This document shows positions 16,451 through 34,084 of a stretch of 38,271 nt of DNA, one piece after another; positions within the stretch are counted from its first letter, which is position 1, and each line of letters begins with the position of its first letter. A model generated the notes under the pieces. That model ran no database searches and was not told where the DNA came from. It saw only the letters and a program-made list of their open reading frames with translations. The stretch is from Chlamydiota bacterium. Lineage in GTDB: Bacteria; Chlamydiota; Chlamydiia; Chlamydiales; Simkaniaceae. Both the position numbers and the translations under genes were made by a program. Where the stretch lies: NCBI GenBank assembly GCA_011065165.1, contig JAAKFF010000004.1, positions 1 through 38,271 of the forward strand, in the 5' to 3' direction.

Positions 16451-17491
16451 ATGAAAAAAGAGTTTCGATCGATTATTGTTCGTATGCCTAACTGGATTGG
16501 TGATCTTGTGATGGCCACTCCTATTTTGGAGGATCTTCGCACCGCTTTCCCCGAGGCTGAGATCACCGCAATGTGTCAATCCAACGTGGCACCTCTATTG
16601 GAGCGGGATCCTGCGATCGATGAACTCTTCCGCTTTTCTCGTGCCAAAGGATTTCTCCGCCGCATCGGAGAGCGCAATATAGTGGAGAAGCTTAAGAGTG
16701 GGAGATATGACTTAGGAATCCTTTTGACCAACTCTTTCTCCTCGGCGTGGCGCTTTTGGCAAGGGGGCGTGAAGAACAAAATAGGGTTTAAGGGCGACTT
16801 CCGAAGCTTCCTCTTGGACCGAGCGCTTCCCTTCCCAGAAAATAGAAGATCCGAACACTTAGTGACTACCTATAAGAGGCTCTTAGAGCCCATTGGAGTG
16901 CCGCTTTCCGAGAGCGCTCCCCGGCTTATTCTACAAGAGGAAGAAATTAAAGGGGCGTGGGAGTTTGTCAAGCGGTTTGACATCACAAAAGAGCAGAAAA
17001 TTATTGGTGTAAATCCAGGCGCTGCTTACGGCTCAGCAAAGTGCTGGCCACCCGAAAGATTTCGGGAGATGGCAGAGCGCCTCATCAAGGCAGATCCCTC
17101 TTATGTTATTCTCTTCTTTGGTGACCTCTCCCATAAAGATCTACTCGATCGTATCTGCAACGGGTTGTCCTCCCGCGTTGTCAACCTAGCAGGGCAGACG
17201 AATTTAAGGGAGCTGATGGCGCTTATCAAGATCTCTTCCACCTTTTTGACCAATGACAGCGGTCCGATGCATATTGCAGATAGCTTGGAGACGCCTCTCC
17301 TCGCCCTATTTGGATCGACAGACCCCATCGTCACGGGCCCCTATCGGCAGAGCGAACAGGTGATAAAGAAAGATGTCGCTTGTGCCCCCTGTTTCAAGCG
17401 CGTCTGTCCCATCGATTTTCCCTGCATGAAAAAAATCAGTGTAGATGAGGTGATCGTAAAACTGGAGAGTTATGTTAAAACGCATCCTTGA
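16451..17491 (+). CDS. waaF: Lipopolysaccharide heptosyltransferase II-like glycosyltransferase (family 9)
   Basis: A 346-residue GT-B enzyme of glycosyltransferase family 9. N-terminal acceptor side: IIVRMPNWIGDLVMATPIL. C-terminal nucleotide-sugar side: GVNPGAAYGSAKCWPPERF and TNDSGPMHIADSLETPLLALFGSTDP. The tail CAPCFKRVCPIDFPCM follows the WaaF pattern. WaaF adds heptose to the inner core of LPS from ADP-heptose at the cytoplasmic face of the inner membrane. Chlamydiaceae LPS lacks heptose, so either this lineage makes a larger core or the enzyme uses another sugar. The gene overlaps the next one by 20 bases, indicating an operon of two related enzymes. Confidence 0.85.
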   Translation: MKKEFRSIIVRMPNWIGDLVMATPILEDLRTAFPEAEITAMCQSNVAPLLERDPAIDELFRFSRAKGFLRRIGERNIVEKLKSGRYDLGILLTNSFSSAWRFWQGGVKNKIGFKGDFRSFLLDRALPFPENRRSEHLVTTYKRLLEPIGVPLSESAPRLILQEEEIKGAWEFVKRFDITKEQKIIGVNPGAAYGSAKCWPPERFREMAERLIKADPSYVILFFGDLSHKDLLDRICNGLSSRVVNLAGQTNLRELMALIKISSTFLTNDSGPMHIADSLETPLLALFGSTDPIVTGPYRQSEQVIKKDVACAPCFKRVCPIDFPCMKKISVDEVIVKLESYVKTHP

Positions 17492-18380
17492 GAGATTTCG
17501 TCCCAATCCCTTTGACACTCTGTTAAAACAGGTTGCGGATGAGGATAAGAGTCGATTTCTAATCGTATGGAATCGGGGGTTGGGTGATATCCCGCTCGGC
17601 CTCTACGCGCTCGTCCATCGGATTCAAAGCTATATTCCCCACGCTTCCATCACCTTTTTGACGCGGAGCGATCTCGCCCCAGCCTTTGAAATGTTAGCCG
17701 TCGGGAAGGTCCTTGTCGATGAGAAGTGGAAGCGGGGAGAACCCATCGATATCGAAAAAACATTGAAAGAGCACCAACTGGCATCGAATATGTTTGATGT
17801 ACTCCTGGAGAGGCCCGATCCGACGAAGTGGCTCAAGTGGCAGTTGGGATCGCTTGTTCCAAAGCTCAACTGGAAGGAGGAGTGGGATCTGCTCATCGAT
17901 CGTTATGAGTTGGATCAGAGCGAAATCTATATCGGTTGCCATGTGCAGACTGAGACAGGCGGTTATTATGGCTATGAAAAAAATTGGGATCTCGCATCGT
18001 GGCGCAATCTATTTAAACGAATCAGCGATCAGAAAAAAGGAAAAATTCTTCTCTTTGGGATGGAACGTGACCCCTCTTTTTTGATGGATGATATCATCGA
18101 TTTGCGCGGAGAGACCCCTCTCTTTGAGATGCTCTCGATTATTAAGAATCGCTGTCGCTATCTAGTGGTTCCCGACTCGGGCGTGCTAAGTATCGCCTAC
18201 TACATCGATGCTAACTTTCCCCTTCGCGTCGTCTCCCTCTGGGCAGATCCGAGGCAGGGGATTCTCCGACAAGACGTCCCCTCCCCAAATGGAGAGCTTG
18301 ACCACCTCCCTCTCCTCGGTAAAAATGATAGAATAGCGAATATCTCTGTCGACAGCGTCTATAACGCCCTATTTAGTTGA
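17472..18380 (+). CDS. Divergent family-9 glycosyltransferase-like protein
   Basis: A 302-residue protein weakly resembling heptosyltransferases. The N terminus has the acceptor-side pattern FLIVWNRGLGDIPLGLYALV, in which the RGLGD turn corresponds to PNWIGD of its neighbour. The C-terminal half contains CRYLVVPDSGVLSIAYYID, matching the TNDSGPMHIA region of the family. The start ATG at 17472 lies 5 bases after GGAG, inside the previous gene. It probably transfers a sugar to the same or a related glycan as the upstream enzyme. Donor and acceptor are unknown. The stop is followed directly by the long inverted repeat at 18386. Confidence 0.65.
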   Translation: MLKRILERFRPNPFDTLLKQVADEDKSRFLIVWNRGLGDIPLGLYALVHRIQSYIPHASITFLTRSDLAPAFEMLAVGKVLVDEKWKRGEPIDIEKTLKEHQLASNMFDVLLERPDPTKWLKWQLGSLVPKLNWKEEWDLLIDRYELDQSEIYIGCHVQTETGGYYGYEKNWDLASWRNLFKRISDQKKGKILLFGMERDPSFLMDDIIDLRGETPLFEMLSIIKNRCRYLVVPDSGVLSIAYYIDANFPLRVVSLWADPRQGILRQDVPSPNGELDHLPLLGKNDRIANISVDSVYNALFS

Positions 18381-18558: not shown

Positions 18559-19536
18559 ATGCCAAAGCACCCCCTCTATGATATCTTTCGCGCCCATTCC
18601 ATGGGAAAACCTGTCGCGTCTAAATCTTTTCAGCCGATTCCCGACGGTCATCTTGTTAAAAGCCCCTCTCTCTCTACTGATCATAAGAAGATGGCAACGC
18701 TCATCCTAGCTGGGGGAGAGGGAAGCCGCCTCGATCTGACTTCCCCCAAGGGGTGCGCGGAACTCTTTCTAAAGAGTAAGAAGAGCCTCTTTCAGATCCA
18801 CTTCGAGCGAGTAAAAGCTAAGGGAGAGGATCTTCCTCTTGCGATCATGACCTCGCCTCTCAACCATGATGCGACAGCTGCCTATCTGCAGCGTAATGAC
18901 TATTTTGGGCTGACCAACGTCGAGCTCTTTCAGCAGGATTTGATTCCAATGTGCGACGATCGGGGGGAGCTCATTCGCGACGAAGAGGAGAAGATTGTTA
19001 AAGCGCCCGATGGAAATGGAAAAGCTCTCTTGCATCTCCACAATTCAGGAGTGTGGAGGAGGTGGAAGGGAGAGGGGATTGAAGTGGTTCAGGTGATTCC
19101 GATCGACAACCCCCTCGCTGAGCCTTTTGATCCCGAGCTGCTTACGCAGCATCAGCTCTCAAAAGTAGATCTAGTATTGAAAAGCATCAAGCGCGAAGAT
19201 CCAGATGAGAAGTTGGGAGTGGTCGGTGTAGAGGAGAGAAGGCTCCATGTCCGGGAATATTCAGAGCCTCTTTCTGCCACCCACTCACTTGAGTTTGCCT
19301 ATGGAAATATAGGGATTTTCTCTTGTACACTCGATTTTGTGAAGGAAATTTCAACGGTTAAACTGCCCTGGCATCTAGCGCGCAAACAGAGAGAAAAAAC
19401 TTGGATCTGGAAATTTGAAACCTTTATTTTTGACATCTTCCCCTATGCAAAATCTTTTAAAGTAGTTGTGGGAGAGCGTAAAAATTGTTTCTCTCCAATT
19501 AAAGATCGACGAGATCTCCTATCTTTTAATTCTTAA
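18559..19536 (+). CDS. UDP-sugar pyrophosphorylase-like nucleotidyltransferase
   Basis: A 325-residue protein of the UDPGP group, which contains eukaryotic-type UDP-N-acetylglucosamine and UDP-glucose pyrophosphorylases. The nucleotide-binding loop LAGGEGSRLDLTSPKGCAEL is clear, and the C-terminal ERKNCFSPIKDRRDLLSF matches the conserved end of that family. It probably makes a UDP-sugar from UTP and a sugar-1-phosphate in the cytoplasm; which sugar is not certain. It precedes gpsA by 43 bases, the order I recall in Chlamydia trachomatis, so it is probably the chlamydial orthologue of that gene. It is shorter than animal UAP1. The ATG directly follows a long inverted repeat and has only a weak AGGT as ribosome-binding site. 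Confidence 0.82.
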   Translation: MPKHPLYDIFRAHSMGKPVASKSFQPIPDGHLVKSPSLSTDHKKMATLILAGGEGSRLDLTSPKGCAELFLKSKKSLFQIHFERVKAKGEDLPLAIMTSPLNHDATAAYLQRNDYFGLTNVELFQQDLIPMCDDRGELIRDEEEKIVKAPDGNGKALLHLHNSGVWRRWKGEGIEVVQVIPIDNPLAEPFDPELLTQHQLSKVDLVLKSIKREDPDEKLGVVGVEERRLHVREYSEPLSATHSLEFAYGNIGIFSCTLDFVKEISTVKLPWHLARKQREKTWIWKFETFIFDIFPYAKSFKVVVGERKNCFSPIKDRRDLLSFNS

Positions 19537-20724: not shown

Positions 20725-22215
20725 ATGAAAAAGATTGAAGGTTATAAGGTCATTTCAGCTTCAGAGATGAGACGCATTGAGAAGCTGAGTATCGAGAAGG
20801 GCGCATCGGATGAGGCGTATATGCTCAAGGCGGCAGAGGGGATTGCCGGTCGGGCTGAAGCGTTCATTCTGGAGAGCGAGTTAGAGAAGAGTGTCACCCT
20901 ACTTGTCGGAAAGGGGAATAATGGGGGCGACGCCTTTGCTGCGGGAACATTTTTGCTCAATCGGGGATTTCAAGTTGAAGCCTACCACACTGTAGCTTCC
21001 GGTGAAGCCTCTCCGCTCTGTCAGAGATTTGAGAGGGATTATATTGAGGCGGGTGGAGAGCTCCATCGAGGGAGAGATCTGCCTCTTAAAGGGCTCATTA
21101 TAGATGGCCTACTGGGGACAGGATTTAAAGGAAAGCTTGAAGGAAAGATCTTAGATGTTGTCCAGAAGGCTAACAACTCAAAGCTGCCGATTCTTGCGAT
21201 CGATATCCCCTCTGGCGTCGATGGAGATAGCGGCGAGATCGATCCGGTGGCGATTGAGGCGAGAGAGACCCTCTTCTTAGGGCTGCCGAAGGTGGGGTTC
21301 TTCCTAAATGGTGGATATAATTCGATCGGGAAGTTATGCGCCATCGATTTTGGAATGGAGCTGCACTTTATTCATGAAGCTCAGCCCCTCGCCTACCTGA
21401 TCGATGAGAAGAGAATTGGTGAGCTCTTGCCGCCGCTTAAGCGGACGCGCCATAAATACGAGGCGGGCTATGTGATCGCTCTGGCGGGATCGCCCGGCAT
21501 GGCGGGCGCAGCGATGCTCGCCTCTCTGGCAGCTCTCCGAACGGGAGCGGGTATTGTCCGCCTCTTCTATCCGGAGGGGATGGAAGGAGAGCTAGCGAGT
21601 TCACCCTATGAACTCATTCGCACCTCCTATAAGTGGGGAGATCCCTCGAAGATCTTTGAAGAGGGCAAGCGGGCGAGCGCTGCGCTGATCGGGCCTGGCG
21701 TGGGCAGAGAGAAGGAGATGCGCACCTTTGTTCAGCAGGTGGTTGGTGGATTGGAGATGCCGTGCGTCATCGATGCAGATGGACTCCTCCTTCTGAAAGA
21801 GTTTCCTGAAGGGGCGATTTTAACCCCCCACTATAGAGAGATGTGCACACTATTAAGCGTAGATAGCCTCACTCAAGAGCTCTGCCAAAAGTTTGTCGAT
21901 AAGAATAGAGTTACGCTCGTCCTTAAGGGGGCGCCCACATGGATCTACCATCCAGATATTCTGCCGCTCATCATCCCTGCGGGAGATCCAGGAATGGCGA
22001 CAGCGGGGACGGGCGACGTCTTAACGGGGATGATCGCGGCACTTGTGGCGCAAAAATTAAGAGGGAGAGAGGCGGCAGCACTCGGTGTCTATCTGCACGC
22101 CCTAGCAGGTGAGATCGCAGCGGAAAAAATGACCTCATACGACATGATTGCGAGTGATCTTATCGAAGCACTGCCTTCGGCCTTTCAGAGAGTTCTTGCA
22201 AGAACCACTCGGTAA
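20725..22215 (+). CDS. nnr: Bifunctional NAD(P)HX epimerase/dehydratase
   Basis: Repairs damaged NAD(P)H hydrates. The N-terminal NnrE (YjeF-N) epimerase domain covers about residues 1-215 with GKGNNGGDAFA and DGLLGTGFKG. The C-terminal ADP/ATP-dependent dehydratase NnrD covers about 225-496 with AGSPGMAGAAMLASLAALRTG, DADGLLLL and the nucleotide-binding GDPGMATAGTGDVLTG. The start chosen is ATG at 20725 because family members begin just before the K-x-x-S-A-x-E-M segment; ATG or TTG codons up to 12 codons upstream are possible. The last 56 bases overlap the end of the epimerase gene on the other strand. Confidence 0.95.
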   Translation: MKKIEGYKVISASEMRRIEKLSIEKGASDEAYMLKAAEGIAGRAEAFILESELEKSVTLLVGKGNNGGDAFAAGTFLLNRGFQVEAYHTVASGEASPLCQRFERDYIEAGGELHRGRDLPLKGLIIDGLLGTGFKGKLEGKILDVVQKANNSKLPILAIDIPSGVDGDSGEIDPVAIEARETLFLGLPKVGFFLNGGYNSIGKLCAIDFGMELHFIHEAQPLAYLIDEKRIGELLPPLKRTRHKYEAGYVIALAGSPGMAGAAMLASLAALRTGAGIVRLFYPEGMEGELASSPYELIRTSYKWGDPSKIFEEGKRASAALIGPGVGREKEMRTFVQQVVGGLEMPCVIDADGLLLLKEFPEGAILTPHYREMCTLLSVDSLTQELCQKFVDKNRVTLVLKGAPTWIYHPDILPLIIPAGDPGMATAGTGDVLTGMIAALVAQKLRGREAAALGVYLHALAGEIAAEKMTSYDMIASDLIEALPSAFQRVLARTTR

Positions 22216-23140
22216 ACTTGGGGATGCCTGCAGCAAGGGATGTTTTTGGAGTAAAGCCAAGATGCGCCTCTGCTTTGGAGATGTCTGCATAGGTTTCGAC
22301 TACATCCCCTTGTTGCATCGGTTGCAAGCTGAGGAGAGCTCGTTTTCCAAGGCTCTCTTCTAATAGATGGACTAGAGTCATGAGCTCTTCAGATCGGTTA
22401 TTTCCCAAATTATAGAGTTCAAATCCGTTGCAGCGGTCGATTGCGCTGGCTGTTCCTTGGACGATGTCGTCGATGTAGGTAAAATCTCGCCTCATCTTAC
22501 CGTTGTTGAATAGAGGGAGAGGCTCTCCACGCACTATTCTTTCAGCGAAGGAGTAGTAGGCCATGTCGGGGCGTCCCCAGGGGCCATAGACGGTGAAAAA
22601 GCGGAGACCTGTCATTGGAATGTTGTAGAGGTGGTTGTAGCTCTTTGCTAAGAGCTCTCCTGCTTTTTTTGTTGCGGCATAGAGGCTGACGGGAGCGTCT
22701 GTCGGGTCGCTCTCTGAAAAGGGGATCTTTCGATTGCCTCCATAGACGGAGGAGGAGGAGGCGAAGATGAGTTTTATTGGTGGAGAGTGGCGGCAGAGCT
22801 CTAAAACTTGCAGAAACCCGTCCAAATTTGAGTCGGCATAGGGCTGAGGATGGGTGAGGGAGTAGCGCACTCCTGCTTGGGCAGCTAAGTGGACAAAGTG
22901 TGTGAACTTCTCTTCTTTAAAGCGGGCGCGTAGGGAGTGGATATTTTGGATGTCGCAGCGAAGCACGTCGATACCTGCCTCTTTGAGTTTTCTTGCACGC
23001 TCCTCTTTAAGCTTGGGAGTATAATAGTCGTTGAAATTATCACACCCGATCACATAATCTCCTCTTTTAGCTAGGTAAGAGGAGAGATGGAAACCGATAA
23101 ATCCAGAGATGCCACTAATAAAAATCTTTTTTTGCGTCAT
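22160..23140 (-). CDS. NAD-dependent sugar epimerase, UDP-glucuronate 4-epimerase-like
   Basis: A 326-residue extended short-chain dehydrogenase. The NAD-binding GxxGxxG is GISGFIG (10-16), the catalytic Y-x3-K is Tyr154 and Lys158, and the catalytic serine is in ASSSSVYGG (about 128-135). Segments such as GCDNFNDYYTPKLK, QAGVRYS, MTGLRFFTVYGPWGRPDMA and the tail are those of the CapI/UDP-glucuronate 4-epimerase branch, which makes UDP-galacturonate. This is a typical precursor enzyme for acidic surface polysaccharide. It is divergent from the export genes, with 5' ends overlapping by 54 bases, and converges on nnr. The UDP-glucuronate source is not in the window. Confidence 0.85.
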   Translation of the reverse strand: MTQKKIFISGISGFIGFHLSSYLAKRGDYVIGCDNFNDYYTPKLKEERARKLKEAGIDVLRCDIQNIHSLRARFKEEKFTHFVHLAAQAGVRYSLTHPQPYADSNLDGFLQVLELCRHSPPIKLIFASSSSVYGGNRKIPFSESDPTDAPVSLYAATKKAGELLAKSYNHLYNIPMTGLRFFTVYGPWGRPDMAYYSFAERIVRGEPLPLFNNGKMRRDFTYIDDIVQGTASAIDRCNGFELYNLGNNRSEELMTLVHLLEESLGKRALLSLQPMQQGDVVETYADISKAEAHLGFTPKTSLAAGIPKFTEWFLQELSERPKAVLR

Positions 23141-24196
23141 CCATTCAGTTTAACACTTCTGCTCTTTTTGCTGCTCCTCTCTATTTCCGGCTGTTCGAAC
23201 TCTCCCTATAAGGGCACTGACGTCCTCGGCGCCGATGAATTTGTCATCGACTCATACAAGATTAGAGAGGGAAAATTTTCTATATTGGAGATGGAAGGTG
23301 AGCCCATTATCCCTCTCAATCCCGCCTATCTCGATGACTACAAAGATACGGTGCAAAATGGAGATCTCCTAAAAGTAGCCCTCTTCCATCCCAGCCGGAG
23401 TGATCTTGTCAGCGCAGTGCAAGCGATAGGGGGGACGATGGGCTATCCTGTACGTGATGGCCACCTAACCCTTCCAGAGCTAAAACCTATCGAAGTGTTG
23501 GGACTCACCATCAGTGAAGCGCGGGAGAAGATCCAGGAGGCCTATGACCGAGAAATTGAGGATCTTGAAGTTTTTCTCGCCTACCAAAAGAGGAAGGTGC
23601 GTAAGGTGCAGCTCGCTGGGATGGTGAGTATCTCAAACATTCCTGTCAGCGGCAGACTTCGTCTCTTTGAAGTGCTCGCTGAAGCAAAAGTTCCTCCCAA
23701 CGCCAACCTCTTTAGAAGTTATCTGGTGCGCAATGGCAGGCCCGTCTCAGTCGATATGTTTAAACTCATGAAGCGTGGGGATATGAGTCAGAATATTGTG
23801 ATGCGAGGTGGGGATAAAATCTACATTGCGGAGGGCTCGGCCTCTAAACTTATGGTCATGGGCGAAGTGCGCACTGAGCGCGTGATCGATATGCCTGCCG
23901 GCTTTATGCCTCTTAGAGAGGCGCTTGCGATGGCTGGCGGAATTCCCTACACAGGGGATAAGGGGTTTATTCAGATCATTCGTGGAAATATTTTGCATCC
24001 TAAAATCTACACCCTCAACTGGAAGCATGTGATGCGTCTACCCACTACGAGCATGCTGCTGATCCCTGGGGATATCGTCTATGTCGCTGCCACTCCCATT
24101 ACAGAATGGAACCGTTTTATCGTTCAGATATTCCCAACTCTCACTGGAATTGAACTCTTCAGAAAAGGTGTAGCAGGAGTTGTAGCAATTCAGTGA
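23087..24196 (+). CDS. Polysaccharide export outer-membrane lipoprotein, Wza-like
   Basis: A 369-residue protein with a lipoprotein signal: a hydrophobic stretch of about 16 residues ending in the lipobox S-I-S-G-C, so Cys36 would be lipidated. It then has a poly-export domain (from GDLLKVALFHPSRSD to about residue 165) and two SLBB-type beta-grasp domains (around VQLAGMVSISNIP and LMVMGEVRTERVIDMPAG). A C-terminal amphipathic helix (ITEWNRFIVQIFPTLTGIELF, roughly) could cross the outer membrane as in Wza. It would form the exit channel for a surface glycan. ATG at 23087 follows AAGAGGAG but lies inside the divergent epimerase gene; a TTG at 23132 would give a shorter signal. It overlaps the next gene by 4 bases. 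Confidence 0.85.
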   Translation: METDKSRDATNKNLFLRHPFSLTLLLFLLLLSISGCSNSPYKGTDVLGADEFVIDSYKIREGKFSILEMEGEPIIPLNPAYLDDYKDTVQNGDLLKVALFHPSRSDLVSAVQAIGGTMGYPVRDGHLTLPELKPIEVLGLTISEAREKIQEAYDREIEDLEVFLAYQKRKVRKVQLAGMVSISNIPVSGRLRLFEVLAEAKVPPNANLFRSYLVRNGRPVSVDMFKLMKRGDMSQNIVMRGGDKIYIAEGSASKLMVMGEVRTERVIDMPAGFMPLREALAMAGGIPYTGDKGFIQIIRGNILHPKIYTLNWKHVMRLPTTSMLLIPGDIVYVAATPITEWNRFIVQIFPTLTGIELFRKGVAGVVAIQ

Positions 24197-27048
24197 TTCA
24201 GAATGAAAATTTCATCATTTTTTCAGATGTAAAGCGGGTTTTTATTCGTTACAAACGGCTGATAGCGGTTGGGGCCCTTCTCTTTGGGGCGATCGGATTC
24301 TATGTGCGCTCTCAACTTCCCCTTACCTACGAAATCGTCGCCACTTTTAAACAGCCCCTGACCACTCCGGGCATAGTGCGAGATGGCGTCTTTGAGAGGG
24401 TTCTCAACTCGATTGGAGTGAGAGAGTCCCATTCGGGATGTTATCTCATTACTTCATCGAAGATGCTGGAGCCTGTCGTTGAAAAATTGGGAGTTCAAGC
24501 ATCGATCGCTCTCGATAGCGGGTTGAGCGGGAGGTTGCGGCAGATCGGAGAGACGATTCGAGCAGAGCGAGGGTTGACAACGAGTGTTAAGGAGGGCTTT
24601 CTCTTTGAGGATGTCCACTATCTCCCTGAAGAGAGCAGAGATTTTAAACTACTCTTCACTTCGAAAGAGCATTTTGAGGTGCGCACACTAGGCGATCACC
24701 TCTTAACCGAGGGGAGAGTGGGGGAGCCGCTGCAATTTGATGAGGTCACCCTCACCTTAAAGAAGAGCCCATCAGCGTTAAAACTACACCATGGCTACCG
24801 CCTATCTCTTAACTCACTACACGGACATATTCTTCAATTAAGAGAGGCTATCGAGGTCAAAGCGATCAATGGAGATAGCACCTTAATTAATCTGAGGCTC
24901 AACCATAGGGATCGCATCTTTGGTAAAAAACTGCTCAACACTCTGATGGCTGAATATCAAACCTATCTGATTAAGGAGAACAGACGGGTCTCTCGAGAAC
25001 AGATGAGCTATCTGGAAGAGAGGCGCGATGAGTTCTGCGCTCAGATGGATCTTTTTTTAGAGGAGCATGTCGACTACTTAAAGGAGAGCTTAGGAGAGAC
25101 GGGTTTTCTCTCTCTCGGTCAGCGTCTTCCCCTTATGGAAGAGAGACAGAAGGATCTTACCGGACAGAGGATCAAGCTGGAGAGTGAGTATGGCGACCTT
25201 CTAACAAGCGCTCCTTCCACTGCCTTTAAGGAGGATGGTGAGATGATGGGGCTGCAGCGCGAGCTTTACGCCATCATGAAAGAGCGTGATGAGTTGGGGT
25301 TGGCATTGATAGGAGCACCAACCCCTGCGAAATATATCACAAAGCTAGATGCGTTAAATTTACAGGAGTTGCGAATTAAAACGGGTGTTGACACCGTTCT
25401 CCCCCACCTCCACTCAGATTTACATCAGAGAAAGAGAGAGCAGGAGGGACTCATCTCTTCTCTTTTTGACTCTGGTCAAACCCTCTCTCCAGACGCCCAT
25501 CAACTTACAAAAATTCAGAAGGAGAAGGTGCGCGTTGCGGCGCTACTTAAAGAGAAGCAGCAGGTAGAGATGACGGCCTCCTATCTAAAAAATCAGTTGC
25601 GTCTCCTATCGATGCAAGAGGGGATATTAAAGCAGCGCGTCTTCCATCGCACAACCCTTGCGGATGAATTTCTAGGAATCGATATTCCGACTCTAAAAAA
25701 GCTACTCCTAAATTACCTGCATGAGAGAGATGAGAGCCTCAGCAAGATCCGCAAAGACGAATTTGTGAGAGAGCAGATGGCAGAGAGAGAGGTTGAGTGG
25801 CTCTCTCTTAGTAGCGCGTTTCCCGACTCGATAGGTCGTGAAATGGCATTAGAGATGGGGCAGTTACTCTTGCAGATGCGCAAGAGGGGAAGCTATACGA
25901 AGAAGGAGCTGGAACGTAAGGAGCGTACCATTTCAGAAAAGAAGAGCGATCTAATCAAACATCTAAACCAGACGCTCCACCTGCAGCAGCTTCAATCTGA
26001 GTTAACTAATCAGCGCATCCGTCTAGTTCAGAGCTCGATGGTTGACCTGCTAAACAGAGAGATGACGCTCATTCAGCAGCAGATCAAAGATAGAGTAGCC
26101 GACCGCTTGCTGCAAGTTAGGAGAGAGAAGGAGCTCGTCAGTGGAGAGCTTCGACGCGTGACCGAGGAGATGGGAACGATCCCTGAGACGTGGCTTAAAG
26201 AGCGTCAGTTGCAGTTCAGCTCGGAGCTGCACAAGGGGATGTTGGAATCTCTAGTCCGTCTCGTTGAGTCTAAAAATATCGAAAATAATCTGATGATTGT
26301 AGAATCAAAACCCTTAGATTTTGCTTACGCCCCTCTGATTCCCATTCATCCCAAACTACTTCTCATCACCCTATTAGGGCTCTTAGTAGGGTTGGTTCTC
26401 ACCTTTGGCGGCGTCTTCATCTTGTCATTTTATCGTGGCATCCCTCTTTCGCTTGAAAATCTCGCAGCGCGTGGAAGAGCAGTGGTTGGCAAGCTCTCAG
26501 AGAGACTCTCCCCAGATAGGGGGAGCGATGATTTAGAAGTGGTAAGAACGCTCTCCCTCTTTTTGAGAGAGCAGCGATGCAGTCCACTTGTGGTCACTCT
26601 GGTTTTGGGAGAGGGGGTCGACTACTCTCTCTTTCTTGCTAACCTCTTGGAAAAAGAGGGACGCACCGCTCTGGTTGTCGATCTCGACTTCTCCAAAAAG
26701 AGCGATCAGAGGGAGCAACCAGGTCTGATTCAATATCTCGAGGGAGAAGCGGACGAGCCGATCGTAGAGAAGAGCTCTTATGGTGGCTTTATTGCTATGG
26801 GGGGAGATTCACCCTATGGCGATGAGCTGTTAAAAAGTAAGCGCTTCCACGACGCTGTCGATAGGATAAAACAGCACTACGATCTAACCCTCCTAGCGCT
26901 ACCGAAAGGTGCAAAGGACTCCCTCTCCAAGAGTCTCTTCTCATGCTCTGATGTGATGGTTGTTAGAGTAGAGCAGGAGAGCTTCTCTCAGCTTCTTCCC
27001 TATTTTGAGTGGGATGATGGCGAAGGAAGCGTCGCCTTTCTCTCTTGA
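24193..27048 (+). CDS. Wzc/Wzz-like polysaccharide co-polymerase with degenerate kinase domain
   Basis: A 951-residue inner-membrane protein. An N-terminal membrane helix lies near residues 15-36. A very long periplasmic part rich in coiled coil follows (about 240-700), then a second membrane helix near 720-746 (LLLITLLGLLVGLVLTFGG). The cytoplasmic C-terminal part resembles a bacterial tyrosine-kinase domain: Walker A' reads ALVVDLDF (about 825), but the P-loop position reads VLGEGVDYS with no G-K-T/S, and there is no tyrosine cluster at the end. It probably sets chain length and couples to the Wza-like channel without kinase activity. GTG start overlaps the preceding stop (GTGA). The last 49 bases overlap a convergent gene. 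Confidence 0.8.
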   Translation: MIQNENFIIFSDVKRVFIRYKRLIAVGALLFGAIGFYVRSQLPLTYEIVATFKQPLTTPGIVRDGVFERVLNSIGVRESHSGCYLITSSKMLEPVVEKLGVQASIALDSGLSGRLRQIGETIRAERGLTTSVKEGFLFEDVHYLPEESRDFKLLFTSKEHFEVRTLGDHLLTEGRVGEPLQFDEVTLTLKKSPSALKLHHGYRLSLNSLHGHILQLREAIEVKAINGDSTLINLRLNHRDRIFGKKLLNTLMAEYQTYLIKENRRVSREQMSYLEERRDEFCAQMDLFLEEHVDYLKESLGETGFLSLGQRLPLMEERQKDLTGQRIKLESEYGDLLTSAPSTAFKEDGEMMGLQRELYAIMKERDELGLALIGAPTPAKYITKLDALNLQELRIKTGVDTVLPHLHSDLHQRKREQEGLISSLFDSGQTLSPDAHQLTKIQKEKVRVAALLKEKQQVEMTASYLKNQLRLLSMQEGILKQRVFHRTTLADEFLGIDIPTLKKLLLNYLHERDESLSKIRKDEFVREQMAEREVEWLSLSSAFPDSIGREMALEMGQLLLQMRKRGSYTKKELERKERTISEKKSDLIKHLNQTLHLQQLQSELTNQRIRLVQSSMVDLLNREMTLIQQQIKDRVADRLLQVRREKELVSGELRRVTEEMGTIPETWLKERQLQFSSELHKGMLESLVRLVESKNIENNLMIVESKPLDFAYAPLIPIHPKLLLITLLGLLVGLVLTFGGVFILSFYRGIPLSLENLAARGRAVVGKLSERLSPDRGSDDLEVVRTLSLFLREQRCSPLVVTLVLGEGVDYSLFLANLLEKEGRTALVVDLDFSKKSDQREQPGLIQYLEGEADEPIVEKSSYGGFIAMGGDSPYGDELLKSKRFHDAVDRIKQHYDLTLLALPKGAKDSLSKSLFSCSDVMVVRVEQESFSQLLPYFEWDDGEGSVAFLS

Positions 27049-28457
27049 TAGGTGCAGGCAGCGAAGAGTCCAGCAAAGAGAAAGAAGATCAACCTCCCAA
27101 GAATTTGGGTCAGTAGATGATGGCTTACAAGTCCACATAGAAGGAGTGAGAGAAAAATGCTCCCTAATGTCAATGAGAGAAGAGAGAATCGTATTCTTAG
27201 ATAGGGCTTATAGAGCGAAAGAATAAAAAGGAGGAAGAGTGAGAGTCCAATGAGCCCGGTCTCTGAAAGTGTTTGTAGATAGATGCTATGGGCGTTTGAG
27301 GCCATAGGGTTGGCACCTACAAATTCTGGGGAAAGAGTTCCATATGGGACATGACCAAATCCATTGTATCCAACTCCAATGAGTGGAGAGTGAAGAAATA
27401 AGAGTAAGGCGAGCTGAAATAAGAGAATCCGACCTCTGTCTGAAGCGATGGATAGCTCACTTCTATTGATGACTCCCCCTCTCTCCACCAAGTTGCTATA
27501 AGTGAGAGCAAAAACACAAATAGACCCCACCAAGATACATGCACCCAGTTTTAGAAGTTTTCTTTTAGCTTGAGGTGACAGCGCCATTTTCTTTGTAAAA
27601 TGTATTGAGAAGAAAACTAGGCTGGCAATTATCCATGAAAAGAGAGAACCCCTCGAGAATGTCAAGACTAGGGTTAGGATTTGAAGTGGAATGAGTGCAT
27701 AGAGCAGGCGCTCTGCCCATCTCTTCTCACTCGTTAGAAAAACGTAGTAAGAGATAAAAAGGCTGATAGAGAGATAGCTGCCAAACATATTGGGATGGGA
27801 AAATGTGCCATAGGCCCGAAGGATTACCTTTTGTCCCTCAGGAATCCAAGGGAGGAGACCACCAAAAAACTCCTTGTGTGTAGGAAGCCAAAAAGTAGCC
27901 ATGTTCTGCATATGGGGTGAGAGCAGCTTCTCAGATAGAAACTGTAAACCTAAGTCGTGTTGCATAAAAAATTGTCCCGTTCCGATGATCGACTCGATCG
28001 CTGCCACAACCAAAACTGCGTAGAAAGTGGGGCGTATCAAGTCGAGACGGTTTTTATAAACGATAAAGACCAGATGAAATCCTAAAGTACCTAGCATAAA
28101 ATTAAGAAGGAGGGAGTAATGGATGTACTCTCTGGAAAATGTGGAAAAGATCAGAGAGAAGAGAGTGGCGAAGGTAAAGAGGGTCAAGTAGCGTGAATGG
28201 CTGTTAAAAAAGAGATCTTTAAGTTTCACTTTCATCCAGAAGCAGAGGGCAAAAATCATTGCAGCGATCAAAAGTCCAGCCAGGAAAAAATGGATGAAAT
28301 TTTTTAATAACGGTGGCAATGTGAATAGAGAGGAAGTCACTTTTAAGAGAGAGTGATAAAAGTCAGAGGAAGCTTTACGGAAGAAGCCAAAATAGAAGTT
28401 AGTAAAAGGTAAAATGAAAAAGAAGAAAGGAATCAATAAACGTCTTCGGAACATCAT
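27000..28457 (-). CDS. O-antigen ligase/polymerase-like membrane protein (copy 2)
   Basis: A 485-residue membrane protein with about ten hydrophobic segments, of the Wzy_C/WaaL family. The family signatures are HPNMFGSYL, LTFSRGSLFSW, IGVGYNGFGHVP and NAHSIYLQTLSETGLIGLSLF; the last contains the conserved histidine and glutamate of the ligase loop. Such proteins either polymerise lipid-linked oligosaccharides or attach them to an acceptor on the periplasmic face. It is a paralogue of the gene directly upstream (15-base gap) and shares 47 identical bases near the 3' end (27052-27098 with 28516-28562). It probably lies in an operon with PBP2. The 3' end overlaps the co-polymerase gene by 49 bases. 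Confidence 0.8.
   Translation of the reverse strand: MMFRRRLLIPFFFFILPFTNFYFGFFRKASSDFYHSLLKVTSSLFTLPPLLKNFIHFFLAGLLIAAMIFALCFWMKVKLKDLFFNSHSRYLTLFTFATLFSLIFSTFSREYIHYSLLLNFMLGTLGFHLVFIVYKNRLDLIRPTFYAVLVVAAIESIIGTGQFFMQHDLGLQFLSEKLLSPHMQNMATFWLPTHKEFFGGLLPWIPEGQKVILRAYGTFSHPNMFGSYLSISLFISYYVFLTSEKRWAERLLYALIPLQILTLVLTFSRGSLFSWIIASLVFFSIHFTKKMALSPQAKRKLLKLGACILVGSICVFALTYSNLVERGGVINRSELSIASDRGRILLFQLALLLFLHSPLIGVGYNGFGHVPYGTLSPEFVGANPMASNAHSIYLQTLSETGLIGLSLFLLFILSLYKPYLRIRFSLLSLTLGSIFLSLLLCGLVSHHLLTQILGRLIFFLFAGLFAACTYQERKATLPSPSSHSK
27052..27098. repeat. 47-bp identical segment shared by two paralogues (first copy)
   Basis: Identical to 28516-28562. Both copies encode the same C-terminal membrane segment (GRLIFFLFAGLFAAC) in genes that otherwise differ clearly, which suggests recent gene conversion or strong local constraint. 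Confidence 0.75.
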
Positions 28458-28472
28458 TGAAAGATATCTTGT

Positions 28473-29918
28473 TCAGGAATTTTTCACCATCTTTCTTCTA
28501 TCCCCATCGGCTGCAGTGCAGGCAGCGAAGAGTCCAGCAAAGAGAAAGAAGATCAACCTCCCCGAACTATAAGCGAGAAAGTAGTGGTCGACGCATCCAA
28601 TAAGAAGCATGCAGAGAAAGATCGTTGCAAGCGTCAATGAGAGGGGTGTGAAACGCCTCTTAAGAGAGGTTCGAATGAGTGAGAAAATGAAGAGAAGGAG
28701 GAGGGAAAGGCCGATCAGCCCAGTCTCTGCTGCCGTCTGCAGATAGATGTTATGAGATAGGGTTCCTGTCGGGTTGGCTAGCGCAAGTTCTGGGGCGAGC
28801 GTCCCGTAGGGAAATAGAGCAAATCCGTTATAGCCAATTCCGATGAGAGGGGAGTGAAGAAATAAGAGAGTAGCGAGTCGGAAGAAGAGAAGACGGTGCG
28901 TATCGGAAGCAAAGGATTGCGCATTGATATTAAAGACCCCCCCTCTATCATTCATGAAGCTAAAAGTAAGGAGTAGTGTGATCAGAAGTCCCGCTCCGAT
29001 CATAGCGGTAAGTTTCAAAAAGTTCCTTCTGACCTGTGGGGTTAACTCTCTCTTTTTCAATAGCCCAAGAGAGAGAAAGGTTAGGGTGCAGAGAACCCAT
29101 GCAAAGATGCTTCCTCTAGAAAACGTCAGAGCAAGAGTGAGGATTTGAAGGGGGATGAGGGCGAGCAGAAGGCGCCGCGCCCATTTTTTTTCACTCGTAA
29201 TATAGGCGTAGTAGGAGATGAAGAGGCTAATCGCTAGGTAGCCCCCAAAGATATTGGGGTGATCGAAGGTGCCATGTGAACGGAGAATTATACTATGTCC
29301 GTCAGGAATCCAGGGCAGAAGATTATTGAAAAACAACTTGTCTGGAGGTATAACAAAATTGGCGATATTATCCATGAAAGGGGTAATTACCGGCTCTGAT
29401 AGAAACTGCAACCCTAGATGGTGTTGCATCAAAAATTGCCCGATTCCGATCAGACACTCTAAAGCTGCCACAGAGAGAACTGCGAAGAGAGTCGGTCGAA
29501 TCCAATCAGGGCGCTCTCTATAGAGAAAATAGACCAGATGAAATCCTAAAAAAGCCAGCGTGAGGTTGAGGAGGGTGGTGTACTGCAAATAGTAGCTGGA
29601 AAAATTAGAGAATAGGATAGAGAGGAAGGCGGCAAAAATAAAGAGTGTCAAATAGCGTGAGTGAGAGTTGAAAAAGAGCTCCTTTATGCGCACTTTTTTC
29701 ATGAAGCAGAGCGCGATAAGTAGCGCTGCAATGAAGAAGTCTGTCAGATAGAATTGGATAAATTTTTGAAAGAGCGGTGGCAAGTTGATGGTAAAGGGAG
29801 CCACTCTTTCGAAGTGGTGAAGAAAATGACAGGAGAGGCCGCGGAAAACTTGAAACTTGAAATTCAAGAGAGGAAAAAGGGTGATGAGCGCTCCCATCGA
29901 AAAATAGATCCATTTCAT
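28473..29918 (-). CDS. O-antigen ligase/polymerase-like membrane protein (copy 1)
   Basis: A 481-residue Wzy_C/WaaL-family membrane protein, paralogous to the next gene downstream. Family segments visible: HPNIFGGYLAISLF, LTFSRGSIFAW, IGIGYNGFALFPYG and SHNIYLQTAAETGLIGLSL. About ten hydrophobic helices with one large periplasmic loop are expected. Its ATG overlaps the PBP2 stop in ATGA (29915-29918), so it is translationally coupled to a peptidoglycan transpeptidase. That suggests the glycan it handles is made or attached together with wall synthesis. Whether it acts as polymerase or ligase cannot be read from the sequence. SEDS proteins such as RodA were considered because they pair with PBP2, but the motifs do not fit. 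Confidence 0.8.
   Translation of the reverse strand: MKWIYFSMGALITLFPLLNFKFQVFRGLSCHFLHHFERVAPFTINLPPLFQKFIQFYLTDFFIAALLIALCFMKKVRIKELFFNSHSRYLTLFIFAAFLSILFSNFSSYYLQYTTLLNLTLAFLGFHLVYFLYRERPDWIRPTLFAVLSVAALECLIGIGQFLMQHHLGLQFLSEPVITPFMDNIANFVIPPDKLFFNNLLPWIPDGHSIILRSHGTFDHPNIFGGYLAISLFISYYAYITSEKKWARRLLLALIPLQILTLALTFSRGSIFAWVLCTLTFLSLGLLKKRELTPQVRRNFLKLTAMIGAGLLITLLLTFSFMNDRGGVFNINAQSFASDTHRLLFFRLATLLFLHSPLIGIGYNGFALFPYGTLAPELALANPTGTLSHNIYLQTAAETGLIGLSLLLLFIFSLIRTSLKRRFTPLSLTLATIFLCMLLIGCVDHYFLAYSSGRLIFFLFAGLFAACTAADGDRRKMVKNS
28516..28562. repeat. 47-bp identical segment shared by two paralogues (second copy)
   Basis: Exact match of 27052-27098 within the 3' part of the upstream paralogue, in the same frame. 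Confidence 0.75.
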
Positions 29919-32900
29919 TCCTTAATTTTATGCTGCTCCTGGATTTCTCTCCACCTCTTTATAATCTGCGCTGCAAGAGGGGCCGCCTCCTTACCGTAAT
30001 CTCCAAACTTAAGATAGATGACAACGCATAGATCGGGCATGTCAAAACGGTAGCTCTCACCCTCTTTAAAAGAGAGAGCCCCAAACCATGTCTCTTTGCA
30101 GATGAGAGAGTTAGGCTCTCTATCTAAAGTGGAACGGTGGACGAACTCTGCTGTCGATGTCTTCCCAATGAATTGATTTTGAAGCGCCTTATACTCGGGA
30201 ATCCACTTGGGATGTTCGTAGAGCGCACGGATCCGATAGGGTTGAACCGGCCCCCTCTCTCCCATGACAACTCGGCGCATTCCCTCTATCAACTCCGTGC
30301 GGACACGGCTTGGAAGATCTAGATTATTCCTAAGTTCGATAGGCACAGTTTCAATCGATTGGCCATCGACTCTAAGCTTTACGATTTGAGGTTTGAGTAG
30401 AGCGCCCCCATTACCAAGCGCGCTGATCATCATCGCTGTTTGGAGTGGAGTGACAACTAATGAGTGTTGGCCAATAGCAAAAGCGTAGAGACCGGTCTGA
30501 TTATAACGCAGATCATCAGGAACATGGCCGCTGATCTCCCCATAGAGATCGATTCCCGTAACCTTTCCAAATCCAAAATTTTCTGCCGCCCTGCGCAGAT
30601 CATCAGGATGGTCGATCACCTCTGCAGCGAGGAGGGAGAAGTAGATGTTGCTCGAACGCTCAATCGCTGTGCGGAAGTCCAACTCTCCAAGCGAGGCGTG
30701 GCTGCGCGGCATCCGCCCCCCTTTGTAGTGGCGCGTAATAAAAGTGCCATCTAAGTGGCGCCCCAGTACAATTCCATTTTTCGTCACGATGTTTGCATTG
30801 ATCTCATCGATGATGGTGAGGGGATTGAGCTCTTGCGTGCGCTCATAACTCTGCCTGAGTGCTTCACACCCCGTTACGAGTTTAAAGAGCGAACCCAGGG
30901 ACGTTGCACGCCCATAGGCGAAAGACTTTCCATAACCAAAACCATTTCTGGGATAGAAGGCGGCAGCTAAATCGCGCAGTGATGCTCCCTTCAAAGAGCG
31001 GTAGCTCCCCCAAAGTGGGGCTGAGAGTTCAGAGTAGCAGTGAAAGGTGGTGAGGAGCTCCAGAGAGTGGTTGTTAAGGAGTTTTCGCGACGCCTTAACC
31101 TCTCCCACTAGTTGCTTACTCTTAAGTACGAGATGGAAGAGAAAGGGGTGCAGCTCCGGCTCTGCTGCGATTTTTCCAAAGATAAAAGCGTCAAAGAACT
31201 TCCATCTGTGCTCCTTCCAAAACTCCCCGAAGAGTCTCCTCTCCGCCTCTACTAAATAATCGGTGTAAGGATGGGGATAGGTTTTTCGCGCCTTCTCTTC
31301 CCCCCTTTTTTCCTTAAGAAAGGCCTTGAAGCTCCTCTCTCTCCATAGAGGAAAGATGCGCTTGCTGTAAAGCTGCTTTACCTGCATTTTTACTTCCGAT
31401 TGAATCGTTGCATAGGCTTGATTGAGCTGGCGGTAGCTGCTCAGCGATATCTCCTCTGTCGACTCGAGGAGAGAGGGTGAGAAGAGATCTTCATCCACAG
31501 CAACTCTTAATAGATCGAGAAAGAGAAGCTTATCTCTATTATCTTTGATAGGTGTTAAGACGAGGTCGAGTTCTCTTCTCACCTCTTTTGCTAGCGGCTC
31601 CTCCAAACTCTCGTGCTCGTGCTGGATAGGGCTCTCAGGATAGAGGGCGTCTATGAGTTCCCTCGGCGATTCCTCGCCCGAAAGTTTCAATAGCGCCAAA
31701 AAAAGGTGCTGCAGATGCACCGCCTCACTAACCGATCGCACCCTTCTCAAACCGGTGCGCACTCTCCCTTTGAGTGAGAGAATCATATCGAGGTAGAGAT
31801 CCCACGTCACCACCTCTCTCTGCACAGTGTCCTGCCGCTCCTTTTCGAGAGGGTAGATGCCATCCCAAAGATTACCGATATGGAGCGGGCTCTCTAACCA
31901 CTTATAGATCGATCTGATCTTCTCTTTGCGATCTCTATCTGTTAAAATGAAATCATTGGGATCGAAGCGAGGATAGGAGGCCAGCGCCACCACCTCCCCT
32001 GTTGCGGGAATAATCGCTACGATAGCCCCTCCCTTAATCCAGGGCGAGCGAATCGTCTCATGTCCCTTCCCCGCACGAGAGAAATGACGGTCTCGATCCC
32101 ACTCATTTTGAATAAGCAGTTCCTCCGCAAAGGATTGAAGTTCAGAGGAGAGAGTCAGCACGATCCTCTCTCCAGAGATCGATTGCGTGAACTCAGGCAA
32201 GTTACGGATGAAGCGCCCCTTCGCATCAATTTCGATGCGCTGCTTTCCAAACTTACCCCTCAACTTTTCATCAAACTTTCGTTCGATTCCCGATTTTCCA
32301 ACATGCGCATGGATAGTGTAGGCTCTCTCCTGTAACTCAGTAAGGCGCTTTACAACCTCCTTAGAGCTGAAAAAGCCCTTAGGCAGCGGAACAGGGAGCC
32401 CCTCCTCCTGCATCTCTAAAAATTCCTGCAGCTCACTAATCTCATGGGCAATTTCTAAGTAGTGGCGTTGATCGATCGCTCCCATGTAGCCAATAATGGC
32501 AGAGCCAACCTTCCCTTGAGGGTAGTGACGTTTACTCGACTCGTGCATGAGTAGCCCCGTCCACACTCTCTCTTGCAGCCTAAGGCGGTAGTAGAGCTCC
32601 TCGGGAATATCCTCTTTGATAATGAAGGGGGTGTTTGGGAAAATCGACGCCTTGCTATGGATCAAATCCTCGATCACAACCGGATTCATATCGAGACTCT
32701 TAGCAAGCATCAGAGAGAGCTTTTTAATGTAGTTACGCCTCTCATAGACCTTGATTTTTTTCTCCCCCTCTCTGATCCAGCTCACCATCGGGATTTCGCG
32801 GATGCGGTCATAGCAGACAGCAGCGTTGTGCTGCACCCTATTGATCGCTAAAGGGATGTTGAAACGGTCGCGAATTGTACCGCGCTTCGCCGGTTCCACC

Positions 32901-33052
32901 ACCGTGCGGCGTTGCGGCCGGAGCGCTTTTTCCAGATATTCATCATGCTTTATCGTCGTCAAGAACCAGACGCGTAAGATCATCATGAGAAAGGCGACTA
33001 ATATTAAATGGAGAACCAGATTGGCTTTATGAGGCACATCACGAGAGTTCAT
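29915..33052 (-). CDS. pbp2: Penicillin-binding protein 2, long chlamydial type
   Basis: A 1045-residue class B transpeptidase that cross-links peptidoglycan in the periplasm. An N-terminal membrane anchor lies at about 11-31 and the dimerisation segment RGTIRDRFNIPLA at 57-69. The transpeptidase domain has S-L-F-K with catalytic Ser721, S-S-N at 800-802, and K-T-S at 964-966 where K-T-G is usual. Between ASYPRFDPNDF (about 358-368) and Ser721 lies a helical insert of roughly 300 residues, far larger than in E. coli PBP2. Chlamydial PBP2 proteins are also over 1000 residues. In Chlamydia this gene lies beside ompA and rpsB. Here the next genes are ligase-like, overlapping by 4 bases. Confidence 0.93.
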   Translation of the reverse strand: MNSRDVPHKANLVLHLILVAFLMMILRVWFLTTIKHDEYLEKALRPQRRTVVEPAKRGTIRDRFNIPLAINRVQHNAAVCYDRIREIPMVSWIREGEKKIKVYERRNYIKKLSLMLAKSLDMNPVVIEDLIHSKASIFPNTPFIIKEDIPEELYYRLRLQERVWTGLLMHESSKRHYPQGKVGSAIIGYMGAIDQRHYLEIAHEISELQEFLEMQEEGLPVPLPKGFFSSKEVVKRLTELQERAYTIHAHVGKSGIERKFDEKLRGKFGKQRIEIDAKGRFIRNLPEFTQSISGERIVLTLSSELQSFAEELLIQNEWDRDRHFSRAGKGHETIRSPWIKGGAIVAIIPATGEVVALASYPRFDPNDFILTDRDRKEKIRSIYKWLESPLHIGNLWDGIYPLEKERQDTVQREVVTWDLYLDMILSLKGRVRTGLRRVRSVSEAVHLQHLFLALLKLSGEESPRELIDALYPESPIQHEHESLEEPLAKEVRRELDLVLTPIKDNRDKLLFLDLLRVAVDEDLFSPSLLESTEEISLSSYRQLNQAYATIQSEVKMQVKQLYSKRIFPLWRERSFKAFLKEKRGEEKARKTYPHPYTDYLVEAERRLFGEFWKEHRWKFFDAFIFGKIAAEPELHPFLFHLVLKSKQLVGEVKASRKLLNNHSLELLTTFHCYSELSAPLWGSYRSLKGASLRDLAAAFYPRNGFGYGKSFAYGRATSLGSLFKLVTGCEALRQSYERTQELNPLTIIDEINANIVTKNGIVLGRHLDGTFITRHYKGGRMPRSHASLGELDFRTAIERSSNIYFSLLAAEVIDHPDDLRRAAENFGFGKVTGIDLYGEISGHVPDDLRYNQTGLYAFAIGQHSLVVTPLQTAMMISALGNGGALLKPQIVKLRVDGQSIETVPIELRNNLDLPSRVRTELIEGMRRVVMGERGPVQPYRIRALYEHPKWIPEYKALQNQFIGKTSTAEFVHRSTLDREPNSLICKETWFGALSFKEGESYRFDMPDLCVVIYLKFGDYGKEAAPLAAQIIKRWREIQEQHKIKE

Positions 33053-34046: not shown

Positions 34047-34084
34047 AAGGGGATCTCCACGTCTTTTTTTCAATGATAAACATG

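Follow-up and report, generated by a model that had tools for sequence, protein, structure and literature searches.

A locus in a Simkaniaceae metagenome-assembled genome (phylum Chlamydiota) is likely to encode the part of a Wzx/Wzy-type pathway that carries an acidic (GlcA/GalA) surface polysaccharide across the cell envelope, an export core of ancient vertical inheritance that is missing from the Chlamydiaceae-like family. The locus spans 22160-29918 of the window, the 38,271-nucleotide stretch of DNA analysed here. An earlier note had described five genes in this interval, for a UDP-glucuronate 4-epimerase-like enzyme, a Wza-like lipoprotein, a Wzc-like co-polymerase and two polymerase/ligase-like proteins, and had assigned them to a chlamydia. 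All five reading frames are present, their proposed families are borne out by comparisons of profiles and structures, and the host is chlamydial. The proposal of a capsule or exopolysaccharide locus holds as far as a Wzx/Wzy-type export locus is concerned; "capsule" is unproven, as a capsule, a released exopolysaccharide and an LPS-linked glycan look alike at the level of sequence. Nor is the locus peculiar to a single unusual lineage: it forms the conserved centre of a system found across the phylum. Chance resemblance is excluded because the domain and profile scores are high and synteny is conserved across the phylum.

The gene at 23087..24196 (forward strand) encodes a Wza-like class 1 OPX lipoprotein, the predicted outer-membrane polysaccharide translocon. 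Class 1 OPX proteins are defined by Poly_export and SLBB domains and a C-terminal Wza_C domain, without a GfcC domain (PMC9603273). The protein belongs to this class by its domains, with scores over the respective cut-offs for Poly_export (33.3 bits), SLBB_2 and Wza_C (27.3 bits). It also carries a lipoprotein signal, a lipobox (SISGC) read directly from the sequence and ending in a cysteine (Cys36) that is invariant in 50 relatives. A profile built from relatives hits E. coli Wza (2J58, 2.5e-36), and 2J58 is also the best PDB match of the AlphaFold2 model (pLDDT 85.5; Foldseek 6.5e-24), in which the C-terminal helix covers residues 337-360. The start codon is uncertain because the 5′ end of the gene overlaps the epimerase gene by 54 nt.

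The Wzc-like gene (24193..27048, forward strand) lies directly downstream of wza, as it does in 75 of 79 loci. Its 951-residue product has the PCP-2 fold expected of a Wzc-like co-polymerase, but the absence of kinase motifs sets it apart from a canonical Wzc. Matches of the single sequence are weak, with GNVR under cut-off; a profile of 50 relatives reaches Wzc (7NHR) at 1.3e-39, and the structural model matches Wza-Wzc structures and Etk/Wzc kinase domains in Foldseek. An N-terminal transmembrane helix (21-40) is followed by a periplasmic domain, long helical arms (about 241-704), a second transmembrane helix (722-748) and a C-terminal BY-kinase fold without catalytic motifs or a Tyr-rich tail. 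Walker A is found in none of the 50 relatives, and its loop is deleted in the alignment to Wzc. The Tyr-rich tail is absent from 50 sequences as well, which have 0-3 Tyr in the last 25 residues. A separate BY-kinase substituting for the fused domain was also considered and rejected, as a scan of 20 genomes for stand-alone BY-kinases (TIGR01007) gave no match over cut-off; LMWPc proteins are encoded in 13 of 20. The cytoplasmic domain of the Wzc-like protein is a BY pseudokinase, and the protein fits the pseudokinase PCP-2 subfamily as defined in PMC12004946. Assembly and disassembly of the complex would therefore be independent of phosphorylation.

The chlamydial pair shares with E. coli Wza-Wzc (group 1 capsule/colanic acid) the class 1 OPX domain order with a C-terminal Wza_C helix, the PCP-2a topology and the folds. 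It differs in several ways. The E. coli Wzc has both Walker A and the Tyr-rich tail, the helical arms are longer in the chlamydial protein (951 versus about 720 aa for E. coli), the window has no wzb-like gene, and the chlamydial genes are dispersed over the genome. Other precedents are the pseudokinase PCP-2 systems EpsV/EcpK of Myxococcus, HfsA/HfsB of Caulobacter and fused forms such as SMc01795 of S. meliloti (PMC12004946), in which a BY-kinase fold without catalytic motifs likewise goes with a co-polymerase; SMc01795 is likened here by its description. The chlamydial pseudokinase, known from sequence and a model, is fused to its co-polymerase and has been kept across a phylum whose members are obligate intracellular bacteria.

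Of 234 genomes of the phylum, 141 encode Wza-like OPX proteins, in 96 of 147 genera; the Chlamydiaceae-like family has none, in line with the earlier note, which knew of no such system in Chlamydiaceae. A search for the cluster across environmental chlamydiae found the pair in most of them, the Wza-like gene being almost always followed by the Wzc-like gene in one conserved neighbourhood. A priming transferase (PGT) is found in 160 of the 234 genomes. Both occur in 127 genomes, Wza alone in 14, the transferase alone in 33 and neither in 60 (Fisher p about 1e-18, computed without correction for relatedness). Genomes that are distant in Wza tend to be distant in neighbouring genes as well (Mantel rho 0.43-0.64, 0/999 permutations), and in the Wza tree the members of a family mostly group together. 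Such congruence rules out a recent horizontal gain of the Wza-Wzc core. We lean, by a small margin, toward the broader view that export of an acidic surface polysaccharide by way of a fused-pseudokinase Wzc and a class 1 Wza is a property of most environmental chlamydiae and was probably already one of their last common ancestor, and that the Chlamydiaceae lost this pathway, making their bare, truncated-LPS surface a derived state. A few genomes bear extra, unrelated OPX proteins.

Downstream of the pair, on the reverse strand, lie two genes for membrane proteins of the Wzy_C/O-antigen-ligase family: copy A (27000..28457; PF04932 4.8e-17, 62.6 bits) and copy B (28473..29918; 5.2e-15, 56.0 bits), both above the cut-off of 31.7 bits. 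They are tandem paralogues, 58% identical, and copy A has about 11 hydrophobic segments. The family holds polymerases and ligases alike, and a match does not separate the two. One of the copies could thus be a WaaL-type ligase that transfers an O-antigen-like glycan onto lipid A-core, leaving Wza-Wzc a minor or different role. Two such proteins in tandem would suit this arrangement, as would the waaF-like gene in the same neighbourhood (glycosyltransferase family 9; 16451..17491, forward strand; PF01075 2.2e-50), a conserved neighbour of the locus in relatives whose product probably acts on the LPS core and has a putative tie to the export system. We nevertheless regard an LPS-linked product as unlikely. 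The best conserved part of the locus is Wza-Wzc, and we know of no requirement for Wza-type OPX proteins in O-antigen delivery. Further, a Wzy_C gene beside the locus is mainly a Simkaniaceae trait, whereas Wza-Wzc is phylum-wide.

The export reading of the earlier note depended on components outside the window, in which, as it correctly observed, neither a flippase nor a priming transferase is encoded. These are supplied elsewhere in the genome, which encodes a priming transferase as well as two candidate Wzx proteins and more glycosyltransferases. The WbaP-type priming transferase lies on contig C56 (PF02397 2.8e-62; WbaP structures 1.2e-53, with WbaP and PglC structures matched) and scores under the equivalog cut-offs, so that its sugar is not assignable from the family. 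Its gene adjoins galE and lies close to ugd; different families share the ugd-PGT arrangement, and the gene order of C56 is kept in relatives. Two PF01943 proteins over cut-off, with 12-13 hydrophobic segments, are Wzx-like flippases. The gene on contig C51 clusters with genes for a GT4, a GumK-type glycosyltransferase, wecB/wecC-like enzymes, an amidotransferase and a heparinase-like protein, and the one on C1 is accompanied by a GT4. The system is split into at least two conserved loci and variable glycan clusters. Contamination or mis-binning is ruled out, since a congener and many further genomes have the locus in this gene order and relatives share the order of C56; for C51 and C1, the check consists of a Wzx relative in the congener. 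Of the parts of a Wzx/Wzy pathway, the genome encodes an initiating transferase, a Wzx flippase and a PCP-2 and OPX pair, with the two Wzy_C proteins as candidate polymerases.

The fifth gene of the locus (22160..23140, reverse strand; PF01370 2.6e-52) encodes an NAD-dependent sugar epimerase, probably a UDP-glucuronate 4-epimerase. Among solved structures (phmmer), it matches 5U4Q at 8.4e-96 and the family of 6ZL6, which we take to be a UDP-GlcA 4-epimerase, at 4.6e-49. Of 83 testable loci, 66 have the gene next to wza in divergent orientation; in loci of the Parachlamydiaceae/Waddlia type, it does not adjoin wza.

In the pathway that we propose, Ugd would oxidise UDP-Glc to UDP-GlcA, which the epimerase of the window probably converts to UDP-GalA. 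The WbaP-type transferase would place the first sugar phosphate onto undecaprenyl phosphate, the glycosyltransferases on C51 and C1 would build the repeat unit, and a Wzx-like flippase would turn it over. One or both Wzy_C proteins may polymerise the repeat, or one may act as a ligase. The Wzc-like protein would form a periplasmic platform that docks a Wza-like octamer, whose C-terminal helices would make the outer-membrane pore through which the polymer reaches the cell surface. The pseudokinase domain may form a structural base for the complex, a role already suggested for EcpK/EpsV and HfsA/HfsB. Because the genes are dispersed, we infer their membership in one pathway.

A flippase scores over the PF01943 or PF13440 cut-off in only 7 of 19 Wza-positive genomes checked; none was recognised over cut-off in the other 12, and the window genome's own Wzx, used as a query within the family, matches only its genus. 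The phylum-wide core (Wza, Wzc, PGT, Ugd) is not accompanied by a phylum-wide flippase and polymerase by profile, which would suit a platform for a different envelope glycan or glycoprotein-linked sugar, flipped by MurJ or another transporter, in place of a classical Wzx/Wzy capsule or exopolysaccharide. The AsnB and ligase genes also resemble families of XrtA/PEP-CTERM exopolysaccharide systems, all below cut-offs (amidotransferase TIGR03108, 467 bits versus a cut-off of 817; ligase-like TIGR03097). An XrtA system is ruled out, as a search of this genome for the exosortase (PF09721) gave no match. Wzx and Wzy families diverge quickly, so that failing to find them by profile says little; several genomes, including that of the window, have full clusters. 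We consider a platform of this other kind improbable. It is equally hard to credit that the locus is a decaying remnant exporting nothing, as the degenerated kinase domain (Walker A in 0/50 relatives), a relative (L058) without the cytoplasmic domain and the many genomes without a recognisable flippase might suggest, for reading frames are intact, Wza is strongly conserved (46 invariant positions among 50 sequences; mean identity across the phylum of 57-59%, versus 44% for the neighbouring PBP and 48% for nnr), and working systems need the pseudokinase partners of their co-polymerases (PMC12004946).

The usual picture of the chlamydial envelope comes from Chlamydiaceae: truncated LPS, cross-linked outer-membrane proteins and no capsule. 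The earlier note called the glycan undescribed in well-studied chlamydiae, which is true of the pathway: in the freely accessible literature searched, no description of a chlamydial capsule or exopolysaccharide pathway was found beyond one table entry from 2009. This entry, cluster 024 "Wza" in Table 2 of Heinz et al. 2009, is a predicted outer-membrane protein cluster of Parachlamydiaceae (PMC2811131). Like the protein studied here, it is a chlamydial Wza homologue and predicted outer-membrane lipoprotein, with none listed for Chlamydiaceae; as a table row, it names neither a Wzc partner nor a pathway and says nothing of a pseudokinase, of synteny or of distribution across the phylum. As about 60% of chlamydial genomes encode the conserved exporter, an undescribed surface glycan may be present in most of the phylum. 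If so, the glycan could bear on survival outside the host, amoeba entry and immune recognition, loss of the exporter would mark the Chlamydiaceae lineage, and phosphorylation-independent co-polymerases would extend to a whole phylum. Simkania, Waddlia and Parachlamydia are cultured relatives, so the idea is directly testable.

Finally, further genes of the window surround the locus. A UDP-glucose pyrophosphorylase-like enzyme (18559..19536, forward strand; PF01704 1.8e-23) is a likely source of UDP-Glc, for general metabolism too. The gene at 17472..18380 (forward strand), which overlaps the waaF-like gene, has no Pfam match, and its orthologues lie at the same place in relatives. The ORF at 33183-34073 has no Pfam match either, and a promoter and terminator scan gave chance levels. 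A penicillin-binding protein with dimerisation and transpeptidase domains (29915..33052, reverse strand; PF03717, PF00905) is a syntenic flank outside the export system, and its gene adjoins the locus in many relatives.

The locus holds a genuine export core, of a type already known. The five open reading frames that the earlier note read as a possible capsule or exopolysaccharide locus are present: an epimerase (22160-23140, minus strand), a Wza-like protein (23087-24196, plus), a Wzc-like protein (24193-27048, plus) and two Wzy_C proteins (27000-28457 and 28473-29918, both minus). By Pfam they are the epimerase, a Poly_export/SLBB/Wza_C protein, a protein that matches GNVR weakly and the Wzy_C pair; single-sequence weakness was confined to the Wzc assignment. 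Class 1 outer-membrane polysaccharide export (OPX) proteins are defined by Poly_export, SLBB and Wza_C without a GfcC domain (PMC9603273), and the Wza-like protein has exactly this composition. Its AlphaFold2 model (pLDDT 85.5) matched 2J58 at 6.5e-24 and closes with a predicted helix (337-360) in the position of the Wza outer-membrane helix. The wza and epimerase frames lie on opposite strands and share 54 nt at their 5′ ends (23087-23140); as the wza ATG sits opposite a codon of the epimerase Rossmann region, its conservation in relatives need not mark the true wza start.

The core has two variant features, a fused pseudokinase co-polymerase and a dispersed pathway. A profile of 50 Wzc-like relatives matched E. 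coli K30 Wzc (7NHR) at 1.3e-39; its matches to BY-kinase domains (VpsO, BceF, Etk and Wzc) ranged from 4e-10 to 3e-9. Wzc and Wza-Wzc structures were the top PDB matches of the AlphaFold2 model (mean pLDDT 79.9, pTM 0.49), with modest global TM-scores of 0.3-0.5, which helical arms of different length and orientation would account for. Aligned with Wzc, the protein has the Walker A loop deleted and the Walker B region altered. All 50 relatives lack a Walker A motif, and their final 25 residues hold 0-3 tyrosines. By its sequence, the chlamydial protein is a pseudokinase. Canonical Wzc cycles through phosphorylation, and its Walker A mutant K540M assembles into stable, Wza-binding octamers (PMC12881504). 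Myxococcus and Caulobacter have pseudokinase partners of co-polymerases that are believed to serve as scaffolds, and fused versions are on record from rhizobia and others (PMC12004946). The chlamydial protein fits this subfamily. Among 20 chlamydial genomes, no stand-alone BY-kinase scored above the family cut-off; LMWPc-type phosphatases were present in 13. In a 1.2 Mb genome (G191, L058:10409-12637), nothing remains of the cytoplasmic domain of the Wzc-like protein.

Other pathway genes lie elsewhere in this 1.63 Mb MAG of 143 contigs, of which the window is contig C78. Simkaniaceae and other chlamydial MAGs are the nearest relatives that bear a name. On contig C56, galE adjoins a WbaP-type priming transferase (PGT), with ugd about 8.5 kb off; in relatives, ugd is often much nearer. 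Contig C51 carries a wecC-like nucleotide-sugar dehydrogenase, wecB, an ADH/GFO fusion, a methyltransferase, a Wzx-like protein, a GT4 and a glycosyltransferase with a GumK-type N-terminus. It also holds a heparinase II/III-like protein (L006:10198-12069) and an asparagine-synthase-like amidotransferase (L006:4530-6434), which resemble proteins of XrtA systems; no exosortase was found in the genome. A second Wzx-GT4 pair, on contig C1, is 62% and 66% identical to that on C51. The genome therefore does not lack an initiating transferase or flippase, the absence that, according to the earlier note, would refute an export locus. Among 19 Wza-positive genomes examined, only 7 had flippase families and 11 had Wzy_C above cut-off. 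Those with no flippase family above cut-off may use an alternative flippase; the simplest reason for the sparse matches is fast sequence change in Wzx and Wzy.

Across the phylum, Wza-like proteins (PF02563) occur in 141 of 234 genomes and 96 of 147 genera. Family f4 has none; the eight near-complete genomes searched in it, of 1.1-1.2 Mb, encode full-length MOMP (E < 1e-198), so we take this family to be Chlamydiaceae. The priming transferase occurs in 160 genomes, together with Wza in 127, and 60 have neither (Fisher p about 1e-18, uncorrected for relatedness between genomes). Six genomes of genus g116 (G153-G158) keep the transferase and lack Wza, possibly a lineage-specific loss; no ugd lies near the G153 transferase.

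The Wzc-like gene lies directly 3′ of wza at 75 of 79 named loci, and the epimerase is divergently adjacent at 66 of 83 testable loci; Parachlamydiaceae and Waddlia-like loci are among the 17 where it is not. The gpsA/nnr and penicillin-binding-protein flanks also recur. A second conserved locus reads ugd-ispA-like-PGT-(galE)-[conserved ORF]-suhB-like-folD-apbE, with gene names assigned from sequence similarity and general background. Pairwise distances for Wza are correlated with the distances for Wzc and for the genes around the pair (rho 0.43-0.64, a level reached in none of 999 permutations), and the Wza tree is largely in line with families. Together, these comparisons argue that the core system is old and vertically inherited, and we infer an origin in the phylum ancestor. 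Extra OPX proteins in four genomes (G043, G060, G063, G071) form a separate group on very long branches, which suggests that they were acquired later; G091 also has extra OPX genes. The 3.2 Mb G043 has a second polysaccharide cluster (L050, L177) encoding a 379-aa OPX, a 932-aa protein matching Poly_export and a 740-750-aa protein whose match to the BY-kinase family is stronger, at 77 bits, yet below cut-off. In G106, a second, divergent Wza (L053:8904-9989; 37% identical, long branch) has no Wzc-like neighbour.

The export core is conserved through a phylum whose usual picture includes no such system; its predicted product is unproven. Heinz et al. 2009 place a Wza cluster in Parachlamydiaceae as well as other bacteria, and do not list it for Chlamydiaceae (PMC2811131). 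The pathway itself was not found described by term searches of pangenome, evolution, Rhabdochlamydiaceae, coral, dinoflagellate, Hydra, Protochlamydia and Waddlia papers, or by a wider search mainly of open-access literature.

Upstream of the locus are GT9/waaF-like and UDP-glucose pyrophosphorylase-like genes, gpsA and the NAD(P)HX epimerase/dehydratase gene (nnr); downstream are a penicillin-binding protein, rpsB, tsf, pyrH and rrf. A 296-aa frame with no Pfam match (33183-34073, minus) separates the penicillin-binding protein from rpsB, at the position occupied by ompA in Chlamydiaceae; a short MOMP-like match lies on another contig (C52). The window also encodes an ATPase_2 and DUF234 protein (7232-8644, minus), of a family described mainly from archaea. 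The environmental-chlamydia gene order recurs in public MAGs named Chlamydia trachomatis, Verrucomicrobia, Acidobacteria or Aerophobetes (L096, L103, L075, L113, L080), so these names are probably wrong.
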